Assembly: GCA_013697635.1 (NCBI GenBank)
Contig: JACCWM010000195.1
Location: 1 to 32,729, forward strand
Direction: 5' to 3'
Length of the DNA: 32,729 nt
Source: Lujinxingiaceae bacterium
GTDB lineage: Bacteria; Myxococcota_A; Bradymonadia; Bradymonadales; Bradymonadaceae
Under the pieces are notes generated by a model that was given only the letters and a program-made list of their open reading frames with translations, was not told the origin of the DNA and did no database searches. Below, one piece after another: positions 4,273 through 32,594 of this stretch (the first letter of the stretch is position 1; every line of letters begins with the position of its first letter). Made by a program: the position numbers and the translations under genes.

Positions 4273-6861
4273 TCAGCCCTTCAAAAAATGCTCGGTCGCC
4301 GGCGCACGCAGATTGTAAAACGAGCTCATTGAGCGTCCGTAAGCGCCGGCCGTGGCGATCAACAACACGTCGCCCTGCTCGGTCGTGGGCAGGCGGCGCA
4401 GATGGCCGAGCACATCACCGCTCTCGCAGATCGGGCCGACGATCTCGGCCTCCAGGGCGGTCGGCTCGTCGAGACGCGTGAGGTTGACGATCTCGTGGTA
4501 GGCGCCGTAGAGCGCCGGGCGGATCAGCGAGTTCATGCCCGCGTCGATACCCACGTAGCGAATCGCGCCCTTTTGCTTGAGCTGGGTCACGGTGGCCAAG
4601 AGAACGCCCGCCTGAGCGACCAGATAGCGGCCCGGCTCGAGCCACAGCTCAAAGCGCGGGTGGGCCTCCTTGAAGCTTGCCAGGGTCTGGGAGAGCTCGG
4701 CGATGTCGAGCGCGTTCTGGTTGGCGCGCTCGGGAACACCCAGGCCGCCGCCCAGATTGAGGATGCGCACGTCGGGGAAATCCTGGGCGGCCTCGGCCAA
4801 AAACAGCGCCGTCTGCGACCAGGTGCCGGTGGTGCGAACGCCGCTGCCGACATGGGCGTGCAGGCCGACGATCTTGAAGCCCACCTGCTCGGCCAAAACC
4901 TTGAGCCGGGCCAGCTCGCCGGGCGATACGCCAAACTTCGACTGGGGTCCTGCGGTGCGCACGTACTTGTGGTGGCCGTAGCCCTGGCCGGGATCGATGC
5001 GCACGAGCACCTCTTTGCCCGCAAAAACCTCGGGCCAGCGCTCGACCGGGTGCATGTTGTCCAGCGTGACGTAGGCGCCGTACTCGAAGCCCAGACGGTA
5101 CTCCTGCTCGGGTGCAAAATTGGGCGTAAACAACAGACGCCCGGCGCCAAGCTTGGGAAATAGCCCACGCACATGCTCGAGCTCGCCAGGCGAAACACAC
5201 TCAAAGCCCAGACCGGCCGCGTAGAATTGCTTGAGGATCTCCGGGTGAGGGTTGGCCTTGACCGCATAGAACACCTGATTGACCGGCTCGATGCTCAAGA
5301 GCGAATCGACCGAGCTCTGCAAGCTCGGCGCATCGTAGACATAGACCGGGCTCTCGACCGCTGCCAGGCTCAAGAGCTCGTCGCGACGCGCGCGCCACCA
5401 GGCCGTGGCGAACACCGGCGCCTCCTCCTCGGCGCCAAACAACTCCTGCCAGGTCGGGCCGAACATCTCGTCGGTGGTGCGCTCGCGAAACAAGAGCGAG
5501 TGCAGCTTTCGCACCAGGCGGTCGGCCTGGTCCTCGTCGACGACAAAAGTCAGGTTCAAGTCGCTCGCCGCCTGCGAGACCATGTAGATCTTGTGCTCCT
5601 CGAACACCTCGAGCGCGGGCGCCAGTCGATGCAAAATCGAGCGGATATTGTGGCCCACCAGGCTCACCGCCGCGCAGGGGCCGATGATGCGCGCATCGCA
5701 GTGCGCCTTGAGATCCGCGAGCAGGTGGTTGACCGCGCCCGGGTCGAGGGCGTTGGCCATTGGATCGAGCGTGACCGTGACGTTGGCCTCGGAGGTGCCC
5801 ACCAGATCGATCGAGAGGCCGTTTTGCTTGAACACCCCAAAAATATCGGCCAAAAATCCCACCTGCTGCCACATGCCCAGCGTGTTCATCGACACCAGCG
5901 AGATCCCGGTCTTGGCGCTGATCGCCTTGACCTGAGCCCCAAAATCCGGCGCGTCCGACGAGATCACCGTGCCCTCGAGCTCCGGGTGCTCCGTGCACTT
6001 GATATGCAGCGGAATGCGATTGGCACGCACGGGAGGCAGACAACGCGGATGCAAGACCTTGGCGCCCATCGTGGCGAGCTCCTGGGCCTCGTCGTAGTCG
6101 AGCTGGCGCAGCAGCCGAGCAGAGGGCACCTCGCGCGGATTGGCCGTAAACATGCCCGGCACATCGGTCCAGATCTCCAGGCGCGTCGCCCCGATCTTCG
6201 CCGCAAAATACGCCGCCGAAGTATCCGAGCCGCCGCGGCCCAAGAGCACCGTCTCGCCGGCGTCATCGCGCGCGATGAAGCCTTGCGTCAAAAGCGCCGC
6301 ACCCGGCATCTCTCCCAGCCGCTCAGTTAGTGCCCCGTCCGGCGAAAAATCACACGCCGCCGACAAAAACAGCCGGTGCTCGGTCGCATTGGGCTCGCGC
6401 ATCGACAAGAGCATCTGGCGCGCATCACACCAGCTCGTCTCGAGACCCGTTCGCGTCAAATACGCCGCGCCCAGCCGGGTCGACATCAGCTCGCCCATCG
6501 CCATCACGCGCGCATGAACCCGCGGGCTGACCTCGCGAATCAGCGACACGCCGAGCAACAAGCGCCCGAGCTCCTCGAACTCCTCGCCGAGCAATTGCTC
6601 AAAATCGACCCCCATCTCGTCCGCAAGCACCCGGTGGCGCCGCTCCACCTCGTTTAGCAACGCGTCGTATTCACCGCGTTTGGACTCCACGAGCAGCTTC
6701 TCGAGCATGTTCGAGACGCCGCTGAGCGCCGAACACACGATCAAAGGCCGCAAGCCCTGGGCGATGCTCTGGCGCGCCACCCGTGCAATCGTGTCCCAGC
6801 GCTCGCGCGACGACACACTGGTCCCACCAAACTTCACGACGATCCAATCCTGCGAGTTCAT
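4273..6861 (-). CDS. lysC-lysA: Bifunctional aspartate kinase / diaminopimelate decarboxylase
   Basis: An 862-residue fusion joining the first and last enzymes of lysine biosynthesis. Residues about 7-290 are aspartokinase: KFGGTS near residue 10, SALSGVSN, RGGSDTS, WTDVPG and the ATMGAKVLHPR segment. About 310-450 are two ACT regulatory domains, expected to bind lysine or another amino acid. About 490-862 are PLP-dependent diaminopimelate decarboxylase: YAVKAN near 531 with the PLP lysine, HAHVGSG, NLGGGLG, EPGRYLV, and GPICESGD near 811 with the catalytic Cys. The middle pathway steps are not in the window. ATG 6861 was chosen because the kinase motif then begins at the usual distance; an upstream ATG (6960) would add 33 residues unlike the family. 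The same domain order is known as a fusion in Xanthomonas-type bacteria. DAP also feeds peptidoglycan, so the gene is probably essential. Confidence 0.95.
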   Translation of the reverse strand: MNSQDWIVVKFGGTSVSSRERWDTIARVARQSIAQGLRPLIVCSALSGVSNMLEKLLVESKRGEYDALLNEVERRHRVLADEMGVDFEQLLGEEFEELGRLLLGVSLIREVSPRVHARVMAMGELMSTRLGAAYLTRTGLETSWCDARQMLLSMREPNATEHRLFLSAACDFSPDGALTERLGEMPGAALLTQGFIARDDAGETVLLGRGGSDTSAAYFAAKIGATRLEIWTDVPGMFTANPREVPSARLLRQLDYDEAQELATMGAKVLHPRCLPPVRANRIPLHIKCTEHPELEGTVISSDAPDFGAQVKAISAKTGISLVSMNTLGMWQQVGFLADIFGVFKQNGLSIDLVGTSEANVTVTLDPMANALDPGAVNHLLADLKAHCDARIIGPCAAVSLVGHNIRSILHRLAPALEVFEEHKIYMVSQAASDLNLTFVVDEDQADRLVRKLHSLLFRERTTDEMFGPTWQELFGAEEEAPVFATAWWRARRDELLSLAAVESPVYVYDAPSLQSSVDSLLSIEPVNQVFYAVKANPHPEILKQFYAAGLGFECVSPGELEHVRGLFPKLGAGRLLFTPNFAPEQEYRLGFEYGAYVTLDNMHPVERWPEVFAGKEVLVRIDPGQGYGHHKYVRTAGPQSKFGVSPGELARLKVLAEQVGFKIVGLHAHVGSGVRTTGTWSQTALFLAEAAQDFPDVRILNLGGGLGVPERANQNALDIAELSQTLASFKEAHPRFELWLEPGRYLVAQAGVLLATVTQLKQKGAIRYVGIDAGMNSLIRPALYGAYHEIVNLTRLDEPTALEAEIVGPICESGDVLGHLRRLPTTEQGDVLLIATAGAYGRSMSSFYNLRAPATEHFLKG

Positions 6862-7046
6862 TGCCACGATGAAATACCTTCTATGGTTCGCTACGTCCCA
6901 AAATCCTTGATTCTGCACATGAAAATGGCGCCGATTTCTATACGCAACCACGCCAGCCATGTCCAGCCACCTTTGCCCGACATCTCCCCTTGCCAGCCTC
7001 AGCCCGAAGCGGCCATGATAGGGCCGCCTTCCGACCCGAGGACCTC

Positions 7047-26695: not shown

Positions 26696-28831
26696 TCATT
26701 CGTTGTCTTTGGGGATGCTGCTCAATTTCACAAGGTCGAGACCACCCGTGTAAGCATAGGACACGTAGTTGTCGTAGCCATAGGCAACCAGGCCAAAGGC
26801 CAGCGGTGCCGAGATCGTGTGCGGCCCATCGCCAACCGGGATGTGTGCGCGCATCATCGTCTGATCGGGGCTGATCTCGTGGTCATAGTCCTTGGGGAAG
26901 ATTTGCTGCCCGTCGAGCGTCAGGATGCCCGTGGGCGGGATCGACACCGTGATGAAATTGCGGTGGTAGGTCGCCGGGGTCAAAAACGAGTACGACGTGC
27001 GGTACTGCTCTTTGGGCGGAATCAGGAAGAACGACGGATCACCGGCGTAGTCACCCCAGTCAATCACGTTGTTGACCGTATTCTGGCTCGAGACGAACGC
27101 TCCCAACAAGATCGGCTCCGAGGCGATGACAGAAAACATGCGACGCGTTCCAAACTCACAGGTCTGGCCGGCGTTGAGGCGAAACTCGCCGGTGGCCGGG
27201 TCTTCGGAGAACTGAGCATCGCTGCAGTGTTTGACGCCCTCACCACTGGTCGACAAGGTGTTCGGGCGATTGAGATTGATTCCCGTCTTGATCACCGTAT
27301 TGTCCACGCGCGCCAAGAACTTCCAGTAGGTGCCCTCGCTCGAGTGCTGAGTCGGCGACTCGTTTCGAAGCTTGAGAGGCGCGGCAACGAAGTTTCGCCC
27401 CCAGGTCTCCATCGGAAAGAGCTGCGACTCGAGGTGATCGCAGGCGCCCTTGCTAAAGGGCACATTGGTGCAGGTGTGGCCGCCGAAGACAGCGACGGGC
27501 TTGCTCGCTGTCACGCGCGCACCGGTGAGGTCCTCGACCGGTGCCGCGCCGCGACCCCCGACGTTGAGCACCTCGAAGGGCTGCATCGTCACCGTAATCA
27601 AACCGCTGGCGCTGGGGCCGCTGATGCGATCCGGGCTCGTGATCGGATAGACCAGTTGGTGGTAGGGACGAAGCGGATCTTTGGACGGGCGAAGTTGAAT
27701 GTCGACCTGGGTATCAGGCTGTGTGGCGATCACCGTCAGATTGGCCGAATAGGCCTGCGGCAGGCGCGTGGCGCCGCCAGCCCACACCGCGTGACTCATG
27801 AACATGTAGTTCTCGGTCAGTGCGCTGGTCGGCAAGAGCAGGCTGGCATCGTTGGTGTAGTTGTAATTGCAGCACAACGGATTGAACTGGTAGGCGATGA
27901 CCGGCTGGGTCGAGACCACCCGATAGCCCGTGTCGGTCAGGGAGGTCGCACCGAAAGGAATCTTGCGATGAGGCAGGATCAACGTCATCGTCGACTGGCG
28001 CGGCAGCACCAGGTTTTCGACCGCGCCGTTGAGTGGGCCGGCCGTGCGCACGCCGTTGATGTCGAGCACCTCGGAGTAGACCGTCTGCAGCTCGTCTCCG
28101 GGAAACTTGATGTCGGTTCCCACGCGCCGTGAGGGCACCGAGAGCGCAAACTCACCATCAGCCGAGTAGATCGTGATCTCGGCCTCATAGCTTGTCGACG
28201 TATTGGCGATGACGATCGCATAGGGCGGGTGGCTCGCCGGCGACAGCGGGGGCGGATCGCCTGGCTTGTCCGGGTTGTTGAGCAGATGATTCTCCATCTC
28301 GACGGCCCAGTACTCGCAGCCGATGTAGCTGTTCTCGACCTCGGCTATCTGGCAGCGGTTGAGACAGAAGCCCTCATCGCAGCGGCCCTCTTCATCGGTC
28401 GGGCAGGGCTCGAGATCACGGTAGGTCTCAGCGTCCTCGTTGCACATCTGCGGTGTGTTACCACCACACTTGCGATGGCCAGGCACGCAGGTCACCCGAA
28501 TGCACTCGCCGTCGCGACACACCTCGCTCTCGGCGCAAACGCCGGGCAAGATCGCCGTTCCGGCGTCGTTGCAGACCTCGATGTTGGGCGTGTTTTCTCC
28601 GCGGCAGCCGAGCAGCGCGTTTGGCACACAGATCTGCGGCAGCACCGGCGGCACGTCGACCTCGACGTCGGCCTCAACGTCGACCTTTGGAACATCTTGT
28701 CCAACGTCGGGCACGACCGTATCCGGCTGATTATTGTTGTTATTGTTGCTAACAACCGGATCACTGCAGCCAACAAGGCCAGCAACCACAACGAAGCTAA
28801 GGGCGAGGAGGGGTGAAAAAGTACGCATCAT
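26696..28831 (-). CDS. IgGFc-binding-like surface lipoprotein
   Basis: A 711-residue lipoprotein. The signal peptide ends in lipobox LVGC (Cys22). A linker of six Asn residues and Val/Asp/Pro repeats (about 28-65) follows. Residues about 68-160 are Cys-rich, with repeated CxxG/C.DGEC-type patterns like short extracellular disulfide modules. Residues about 165-711 are a beta-rich domain; segments such as KPVAVFGGHTC and LESQLFPMETWG are typical of the IgGFc_binding family, named from a human mucus protein and widespread on surfaces of predatory and soil bacteria. A role in adhesion or surface structure is likely but not shown. Two ATG codons are adjacent (28831 and 28828); either may start. 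It precedes the kinase regulator at 22989 in a likely operon. Confidence 0.87.
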   Translation of the reverse strand: MMRTFSPLLALSFVVVAGLVGCSDPVVSNNNNNNQPDTVVPDVGQDVPKVDVEADVEVDVPPVLPQICVPNALLGCRGENTPNIEVCNDAGTAILPGVCAESEVCRDGECIRVTCVPGHRKCGGNTPQMCNEDAETYRDLEPCPTDEEGRCDEGFCLNRCQIAEVENSYIGCEYWAVEMENHLLNNPDKPGDPPPLSPASHPPYAIVIANTSTSYEAEITIYSADGEFALSVPSRRVGTDIKFPGDELQTVYSEVLDINGVRTAGPLNGAVENLVLPRQSTMTLILPHRKIPFGATSLTDTGYRVVSTQPVIAYQFNPLCCNYNYTNDASLLLPTSALTENYMFMSHAVWAGGATRLPQAYSANLTVIATQPDTQVDIQLRPSKDPLRPYHQLVYPITSPDRISGPSASGLITVTMQPFEVLNVGGRGAAPVEDLTGARVTASKPVAVFGGHTCTNVPFSKGACDHLESQLFPMETWGRNFVAAPLKLRNESPTQHSSEGTYWKFLARVDNTVIKTGINLNRPNTLSTSGEGVKHCSDAQFSEDPATGEFRLNAGQTCEFGTRRMFSVIASEPILLGAFVSSQNTVNNVIDWGDYAGDPSFFLIPPKEQYRTSYSFLTPATYHRNFITVSIPPTGILTLDGQQIFPKDYDHEISPDQTMMRAHIPVGDGPHTISAPLAFGLVAYGYDNYVSYAYTGGLDLVKLSSIPKDNE

Positions 28832-30067: not shown

Positions 30068-31183
30068 TTGAACACGACAATTTTTCTCCAGCGCCATCTC
30101 GACGCATCTGACGAAGAAGTTCCCCGCCTCATTGAGATGGCAACCACTGCACTTGCAAAGGGTACGGATTTCCCCATGGGCTCGGGCACCGAGGAGCGCC
30201 TCTGGCGCTACCTTCAGTACCCGTACTATCTGGGTCTGTTTGCACAGAAGGTCGTGCACGCCGAGGGCATCTCCGATCATGTCAAAGAGAAGCTCTGCCA
30301 CGCCGTGCTCCAGATCAATATGCACCTCGACCAGGGCCAGGAGCCCGGCCCAGGCCTCTTCCAGCTGTCGGCCTGGCTTGGCCGCCACGCCCTGCTCTCC
30401 CACGACGATTATCTGGGCCTTCGCAAGGGTCTGATCTGGCTGCCTCGCCTGACGGACAGCTATGCCGAGCCCACGCGCCAGATTCTGCCGGCCTGCGACG
30501 GCATCTTTCGTGATCTGCAGATTCATCGCGAGCAGGCCATCGAGCTTGTCTTGATGATTTTGACGGCCAAAGAGGCGATCGGTGATCAGGGCCGCGAGAT
30601 ATTCGACCACCTCATGGAGCTGGCCGTCTTGAACAAGAGCCTCAAGCGCGAGGTCTGCCAGATCGTCGTTCAAAACGCCATCCCCTTCCCGCGCGGTGAA
30701 TACCAACATCCGCTCGAGACTAGCGCCTCCGAGCAAGACCGCCTGAGCATTCGCTTTTTGCCCGGCAGCGTTCGCCGCCGCGCCGTCGTTTGGCTTGCGC
30801 GCCTTGGCAAAGACCCCCTTGAGCTCTTGAAGCGCCTGCTCAAGCCCAATACCGTGCGCGGCTACGGCGGCGACCAGGTCGCAAGCGGCGCGCTCGATCT
30901 GCTCGACGAGCGCTGGGAGCTCATCGCCGATGAGCTGCGCCTGAGCCTGCTTCGAAAGGCCGCCGATCTGCCAGACACCGCTGTTCGAAAGCGCGCCTAC
31001 ATCCTTGGCGAGAAGTATCTGGGCATCGACTTCTTGCGCCAGGCGCTCGACGACAAGGCCAAGAGTTTGCGTGAGTGGGCCGAGGAGCGCCTCGCGCGCC
31101 GCGAGCGCGGCGAGCTGCCCAGCGAAGAGCAGCTTCAGGCCGAGCTCGACCAGGAGTTCGACGAGGAAGACAGCGACGAGTAG
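30068..31183 (+). CDS. Helical-repeat protein of unknown function, first gene of a three-gene cassette
   Basis: A 371-residue cytoplasmic protein with no recognised catalytic motif. It is almost entirely helical. The part at about 225-345 has HEAT-like helix pairs (RRRAVVWLARLGKDPLELLKRLL, VASGALDLLDERWELIADEL, TAVRKRAYILGEKYLGIDFL), a layout used for protein-protein binding. The C-terminus is a charged helix ending in a strongly acidic tail (DEEDSDE). A TTG start is used, supported by AGAGGG upstream. The next gene starts 3 bases after this stop, so the two are certainly in one transcript. The cassette's third gene is the rotary-ATPase-like protein, making this a candidate scaffold for it. 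Function unknown. Confidence 0.75.
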   Translation: MNTTIFLQRHLDASDEEVPRLIEMATTALAKGTDFPMGSGTEERLWRYLQYPYYLGLFAQKVVHAEGISDHVKEKLCHAVLQINMHLDQGQEPGPGLFQLSAWLGRHALLSHDDYLGLRKGLIWLPRLTDSYAEPTRQILPACDGIFRDLQIHREQAIELVLMILTAKEAIGDQGREIFDHLMELAVLNKSLKREVCQIVVQNAIPFPRGEYQHPLETSASEQDRLSIRFLPGSVRRRAVVWLARLGKDPLELLKRLLKPNTVRGYGGDQVASGALDLLDERWELIADELRLSLLRKAADLPDTAVRKRAYILGEKYLGIDFLRQALDDKAKSLREWAEERLARRERGELPSEEQLQAELDQEFDEEDSDE

Positions 31184-31456: not shown

Positions 31457-31460
31457 GGAG
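31457..31460 (+). promoter_or_regulatory. Ribosome-binding site for the rotary-ATPase-like gene
   Basis: GGAG lies 9 bases before TTG 31470. The frame is open further upstream but that part overlaps the preceding gene. Another TTG at 31455 has no site of its own. Confidence 0.5.
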
Positions 31461-31469
31461 CTCCCCAAA

Positions 31470-32594
31470 TTGAAGGATCCAGAGTTCGAAAACTACGCGC
31501 CGGCCCTGGCCACCGTCGTGCATGTCGGCGAGGGCTGGATTCGCGCCTTTGTCGTCGACGCGATCCCCGCACTTGGCGAGGCGCTTGCCATCGTCGGCCC
31601 CCACGGCCAGCGGGTCTATGCCGAGGTGCGCCGCCACAGCGGCCACCGCCTCGTCGAGGCCTTGCTCTTTGACGCGCCCGCCTGGCTTAGCCCCGGCCTG
31701 CCTGTCGAGCGCACGCACCGCGCGGCCGCGATCGCCCTGCCCGAAGCGTGCGACCTCGTGCCCGGCGCTGATACCCTGGTTCCCCACGAGCCGGGCGAAA
31801 ACCTCGCCCTGGCCGCCCCCCGGCCATCCTTCGCCCAGCTCGACGGCCAAAGGCCCCCGCTCAACACCGGCATCGAGGCCCTCGATCTGCTCTCCCCGCT
31901 TGTCCAACGCGGCACCAACCTCGTCATCGACACCAGCACCGACACCGCGGCATTTGACGCCCTCGCGCGCTGCACCACCGCTGGTGCCGATCACGACGTC
32001 GCACTCGTCGTCACCACCGACGGCCGCGCTCTCGGCTTGAACGCCCGCCAGGTGCGCGTTGGCCAAGGTGCCGGCCAGCACCTGCTCGCGCTACGACTGG
32101 CGATGCGCTGGGCGATCGCGCTTCGCGACCGCGGCCAAAACGTCCTCTTTGTCGCCGAGCTCCCCCCCGTCGGCAGCACACCCACAAAACACACGGCCCG
32201 CGCAGAACAGGCGGTCACCGTCGGCTTTGGCGAAATCGTCGACCTCGTCGGCGAGGCCCTGGTCTCGACCCACAGCGCCGCGGTGACCGTACTCTTAAGG
32301 CTCTCGCTGGCCGATCCCGTCGGCGGCCTGGCCGAGATCATCGAAACCCTCGAACTCGGCGACATCGACGCCCAAATCTTCGTCACCAACGACGGCCGCT
32401 TCGATCCGCGCCGCTCCCACTCCCGCGCCCAGCTCCCCGCCTCCCGCGCAACCCAGCGCTCCGAGGCCCTGGCCATCCTCTCGCTCGCCCGAAAGGCCGA
32501 GGAGCGCAGCGAACTCTTTGGCGACGACGAACTCGAACCCCACGAACTAGACGCGCTCGACCAGGCCCAGGCCTGGATGGCCGGCCTTGCATAG
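31470..32594 (+). CDS. Degenerate rotary-ATPase (F/V/FliI-type) nucleotide-binding-subunit-like protein
   Basis: A 374-residue protein that aligns by eye with alpha/beta-type subunits of rotary ATPases. Residues about 11-95 match the N-terminal beta-barrel (VVHVGEGWIRAFVVDAIPA, GEALAIVG, LSPGLPVERT). PLNTGIEALDLLSPL at 130-144 equals the PLLTGIKAIDxLxPI signature before the P-loop. The P-loop itself (GDRQTGKT in F1) reads IDTSTDTA near 153-160, without Gly, Lys or Thr. RWAIALRDRGQNVLFVAE at 213-230 equals the EYFRDxGxxVLxxxDD segment, but the Walker B acids are missing. FDPRRSHSR at 311-319 equals the VDPLDSTSR segment. The C-terminal helical domain is reduced to about 50 residues. Family subunits are about 440-510 residues. 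Catalysis is unlikely, so a structural or regulatory role is inferred. Start TTG 31470 is moderately sure. Confidence 0.72.
   Translation: MKDPEFENYAPALATVVHVGEGWIRAFVVDAIPALGEALAIVGPHGQRVYAEVRRHSGHRLVEALLFDAPAWLSPGLPVERTHRAAAIALPEACDLVPGADTLVPHEPGENLALAAPRPSFAQLDGQRPPLNTGIEALDLLSPLVQRGTNLVIDTSTDTAAFDALARCTTAGADHDVALVVTTDGRALGLNARQVRVGQGAGQHLLALRLAMRWAIALRDRGQNVLFVAELPPVGSTPTKHTARAEQAVTVGFGEIVDLVGEALVSTHSAAVTVLLRLSLADPVGGLAEIIETLELGDIDAQIFVTNDGRFDPRRSHSRAQLPASRATQRSEALAILSLARKAEERSELFGDDELEPHELDALDQAQAWMAGLA

Follow-up and report, generated by a model that had tools for sequence, protein, structure and literature searches.

A full-length F1 ATP synthase beta homologue without an ATP site, conserved in Bradymonadaceae

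The stretch of DNA analyzed here (the window) is one whole contig of 32,729 bases from the 6.2-Mb genome of a Lujinxingiaceae bacterium in the family Bradymonadaceae. It carries a cluster of three tightly packed genes that encode, in order, a 371-aa protein, an 88-aa protein, and a homologue of F1 ATP synthase beta with no P-loop, which we refer to as pseudo-beta. The pseudo-beta reading frame starts with TTG at 31470, is open throughout, and stops at 32594. The features of the cluster, with residue numbers of pseudo-beta, are:

30068-31183, + strand: first gene of the cluster, a conserved all-helical (HEAT/ARM-like) protein of 371 aa
31187-31453, + strand: second gene, a conserved protein of 88 aa, function unknown
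31457-31460, + strand: putative ribosome-binding site GGAG, read from the sequence just 5' of the pseudo-beta TTG
31470-32594, + strand: third gene, pseudo-beta, the P-loop-less F1-beta homologue, 374 aa, TTG start
31536-31739, + strand: match to the F1 N-terminal beta-barrel, residues ~23-90, with strands in the AF2 model and approximate borders
31860-31934, + strand: TGIEALDLLSPL and the old P-loop position, residues 131-155, with G-G-x-N-L-I-x-D instead of Walker A
32136-32171, + strand: Walker-B position, residues 223-234, with L-P conserved in the family and a variable acid
32235-32429, + strand: most conserved stretch of pseudo-beta, residues 256-320, which correspond to ITSTKKGSITS...TFAHLDATTVLSR...DPLDSTSR in beta
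32430-32591, + strand: C-terminal helical domain, with GDDELEPHE as the DELSEED equivalent, ending at the point of beta FLSQPF

The 371-aa protein is lineage-specific and strongly conserved (66-83% identity), and it occurs as a single copy in all 21 Bradymonadaceae genomes. It has no relative in Pfam or NCBIfam and no significant fold match in the PDB, where HEAT/ARM types came closest with a best E of 5e-3; the V-ATPase chain ranked 34 among these fold matches was discounted as evidence. Elsewhere in the window, an 895-aa fusion of an aspartokinase-like amino-acid kinase (with ACT domains) and a diaminopimelate/ornithine-decarboxylase-type PLP enzyme is encoded at 4273-6960 (- strand). The gene at 26696-28831 (- strand), whose synteny is kept across Bradymonadaceae, specifies a secreted or lipoprotein-like product that carries an IgGFc-binding domain (PF17517).

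A sequence-only reading had described the third gene as generically rotary-ATPase-like and had proposed PF00006 and PF02874 as the profiles to search. Neither gave a score with the single protein, and Pfam and PADLOC together returned nothing useful, the one 14.5-bit methyltransferase match being taken as chance. The only NCBIfam match of the single protein was a weak one to atpD, the F1 beta subunit (E=0.0011); against TIGR01039 it scores 17.8 bits, below the equivalog cut-off of 462.85 bits. A phmmer search of the PDB sequences likewise placed F1 beta chains first (E=1.8e-5). The profile of 17 pseudo-beta family members matched F1 beta at E ~1e-20, with alignments that run from residue ~15 to 373 in most chains, while alpha reached only 2e-5, SctN/FliI less, and Rho went unmatched. 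Profile-profile comparison by hhalign gave 114 for beta, 53 for alpha, 46 for SctN, and 21 for Rho, with all comparison sets drawn from the same bacterial group and those for SctN and Rho consisting of one and two sequences, respectively. The landmarks reported earlier as being in F1/V1/FliI order are indeed present: TGIEALDLLSPL, LRDRGQNVLF, and FDPRRSHSR align with F1-beta TGIKVVDLLAP, FRD.EGQDVLL, and DPLDSxS. Pseudo-beta is a full-length homologue of F1 beta without an ATP site, and the family profile and hhalign narrow its identity to an F1-beta paralogue specifically, not one that is alpha- or FliI-like.

The predicted structure, which the same reading had suggested comparing with F1 alpha and FliI, also matches F1 beta best. 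The AF2 model (single chain, built from an eight-sequence alignment; pLDDT 78.5, pTM 0.76) aligns with F1 beta across residues 11-374 (Foldseek E 3e-21; Z 24.8, rmsd ~4), and all three beta domains are present in it, the crown-forming barrel of F1 among them. FliI and EscN score Z 23.4-23.8 and V1 B is likewise within about one Z unit, so fold alone cannot separate F1 beta from V1 B, FliI, or EscN; sequence does. The catch-loop region (residues 236-252) is short and modeled with low confidence.

As had been noted for the window protein, the Gly-Lys-Thr of the P-loop is gone: the Walker A of beta (GGAGVGKT), the general pattern G-x4-G-K-[ST], and any GK[ST] are absent from 23 of 23 members (the window protein and 22 homologues). 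The family has its own conserved pattern at this position, GGxNLIxD, which argues that the old P-loop site was not simply eroded. The alignments also lack the catalytic GER segment and the conserved Walker-B acid of beta. Here the earlier claim that Walker B acids are missing needs to be revised, as the window protein does carry an acid (VAELPP); it is its conservation that fails, the orthologues having D, E, T, S, or yet other residues there. Pseudo-beta is ~90 aa shorter than F1 beta. What it retains is the N-terminal barrel, TGI..LDLLSPL, STxxGSIT, DPxxSxSR, and the C-terminal helices, in which GDxEL resembles DELSEED. The family alignment has 13 invariant columns.

An initial contig scan with the single pseudo-beta protein gave no match, and the conserved 371-aa neighbor was used to find further relatives. 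Pseudo-beta orthologues, whose named hosts are Lujinxingia vulgaris and other Bradymonadaceae, are present in 20 of 21 genomes of the family; 18 (the window's genome counted) were recovered by single-protein search and two (G001 and G012) by profile, the latter strongly diverged (18-19% identity to the window protein). The sole genome without one is 87% complete. In a search of 331 genomes of the phylum, pseudo-beta was found only in Bradymonadaceae and a sister family, both Bradymonadales. Six further genomes gave weak profile matches; the three that were fetched have GGAGVGKT and are normal beta.

Few known proteins are as conserved as the F1 subunits, and within Bradymonadaceae the ordinary beta and alpha share 69-79% and 75-84% identity. 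The window pseudo-beta shares 26-40% with its main family orthologues, so it evolves far faster than the real beta or the adjacent 371-aa gene. Its dN/dS is nonetheless ~0.24-0.28 between congeners; pseudo-beta is not a pseudogene and is kept under purifying selection. The sequence-only description of a degenerate subunit that stands alone in this genome, with two unknown genes next to it, thus holds for a conserved family with a matching predicted fold.

About a dozen genomes have the three genes side by side at tight spacing. In five others (G004, G005, G006, G009, and G019), pseudo-beta and the 371-aa gene are separated and both retained, and so they are not obligatory neighbors. At two of the relocated loci, pseudo-beta overlaps (G005, L052:8225-10815) or adjoins (G004, L049:6052-9580) a gene whose coiled-coil product has apparent membrane segments, and pyruvate dehydrogenase E1/E2 genes come next.

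The window's genome has ordinary F1Fo genes in order (two b-type subunits, delta, alpha, gamma, beta, and epsilon) and also encodes SctN and two Rho proteins; its alpha and SctN have intact P-loops. The pseudo-beta cluster includes no gene for an alpha-like partner, and no secretion genes were seen in it.

In the sister family (f2), a P-loop-less beta homologue of 313-400 aa lies directly 3' of atpC, on the same strand and ~7-170 bases downstream, in four of four atp operons, these being the only sister-family genomes in which the operon is readable past atpC. The sister-family profile matches the window family over its full length with a score of 92 (E 6e-12), vs 53 for beta. The two sets of homologues form one clade in the tree (support 0.998). 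The pseudo-beta branch is too long to trust, and its position outside beta may reflect long-branch attraction. No such gene follows atpC in the examined genomes of class families f3-f6 or of the window's own family. Thus, pseudo-beta is co-encoded with atp genes in the sister family, while in the window's own family it lies apart from the atp operon. The simplest history would be that atpD was duplicated within the atp operon of a common ancestor, before the two Bradymonadales families split; that the duplicate lost its nucleotide site and was retained; and that it was later relocated out of the operon in the window's family.

Homology, predicted fold, Walker A loss, conservation, purifying selection, and the sister-family atp-operon position are shown here, and it is the last of these, together with the retained beta body, that makes a role on F1 our best guess. 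We give about even weight to the idea that pseudo-beta serves the cell's own F1Fo ATP synthase as an accessory factor, acting in its assembly or regulation independently of nucleotide. Of the roles suggested by the sequence-only reading, the operon position favors a regulator of a genuine rotary ATPase over a scaffold on its own or a link to an export ATPase. Pseudo-beta may attach to alpha or to part of F1 with no nucleotide involved, with the barrel, the conserved segment on either side of DPxxSxSR, and the C-terminal domain as candidate binding surfaces. It could then hold subunits while F1 assembles, or it could take a beta position and so limit or silence the enzyme. The more specific proposal, that a nucleotide-blind beta copy enters or caps the F1 head and either controls assembly or switches the enzyme off, is tentative and to our minds rather improbable as it stands.

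Several observations weigh against an accessory role. Because the gene in the window's own family lies outside the atp operon, with two unknown genes and elsewhere in some genomes, the operon link may be a mere trace of duplication origin. The beta-facing surface of alpha (75-84% identity) should constrain a tight partner, and yet pseudo-beta shares only 26-40% identity. The short, low-confidence catch-loop region of the model also counts against it.

The main alternative, possible but distinctly less probable than an accessory role, is that the beta fold was neofunctionalised after leaving the atp operon and now forms a nucleotide-independent complex with the 371-aa and 88-aa proteins, the sister-family position being ancestral. 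The tight adjacency of these genes in about a dozen genomes and the very rapid divergence of pseudo-beta are consistent with this, as is the changeable context seen in the two genomes where it meets the gene of a coiled-coil/membrane-segment protein. However, the 371-aa gene is highly conserved and pseudo-beta is not, and five genomes keep the two genes apart with neither lost. That pseudo-beta assembles by itself into a hexameric ring or scaffold independent of nucleotide, an idea of the sequence-only reading, is unlikely; the model keeps all three beta domains, including the crown barrel, but a fold by itself does not imply a ring. We consider it very improbable that pseudo-beta serves the type III secretion ATPase SctN: genes of the SctN type are present in these genomes and the structural scores of FliI and EscN are near those of F1 beta, whereas the sequence profile clearly favors F1 beta (114 vs 46), the cluster is without visible secretion genes, and the sister-family copy sits in the atp operon. 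Finally, large losses and fast divergence might suggest a functionless, decaying remnant of a duplicated atpD, but this can practically be dismissed given intact frames in 20 genomes of Bradymonadaceae and four of the sister family, the low dN/dS, the 13 invariant columns, and the new motif that is conserved where the P-loop used to be.

Pseudo-beta resembles F1 beta (AtpD, TIGR01039) in its full-length profile match, predicted fold, domain order, STxxGSIT, DPxxSxSR, and DELSEED region, and differs from it in lacking Walker A, GER, and the conserved Walker-B acid and in its length. Non-catalytic F1 alpha and V1 B subunits belong to the same superfamily; unlike pseudo-beta, they are constitutive subunits of a hexamer, and pseudo-beta is closer to beta, while the alpha of this genome has a P-loop. 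FliI/SctN export ATPases share the overall fold, with a weaker sequence profile and, in SctN, a P-loop. To our knowledge, a long-kept F1 beta duplicate without an ATP site has not been described, and we found no description of a P-loop-less F1 beta paralogue in searches of an open-access library. The nearest precedent for F1 paralogues that do a different job is the Type 2 and Type 3 F1-like ATPases of Mycoplasma (the MIB-MIP system and the gliding machinery). These retain Walker motifs and occur as sets of alpha, beta, gamma, and epsilon (PMC3369863; PMC12994834). Pseudo-beta, in contrast, is single and P-loop-less, with no alpha-like partner in its cluster.

If pseudo-beta acts on the ATP synthase, it would represent a new means of building or restraining the enzyme. 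Entry into or capping of the F1 head by pseudo-beta would be a form of F1 control distinct from epsilon, IF1, and zeta. If it has no role in the ATP synthase, it would show further uses of the rotary-ATPase fold without nucleotide. Cultured Bradymonadaceae (Lujinxingia) are available, so pseudo-beta is open to experiment.

The ordinary ATP synthases of these bacteria have features of their own. In families f1 and f2 (and apparently f4, where matches are split), the ordinary F1 beta has an insert of ~50 aa right after the N-terminal barrel, where the region measures 66-67 residues vs 17 in another family of the class. The insert has the look of a small SH3/Sm-like barrel; we know of no description of it. 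The insert of the local beta is missing from the window pseudo-beta. Loci with an insert-bearing beta include atpD of genome G000 (L076:670-2337, - strand) and the beta genes in L173, L175, L180, and L185. Three Bradymonadaceae genomes (G003, G007, and G010) also have another F1 alpha/beta pair that is more divergent and probably belongs to an N-ATPase.
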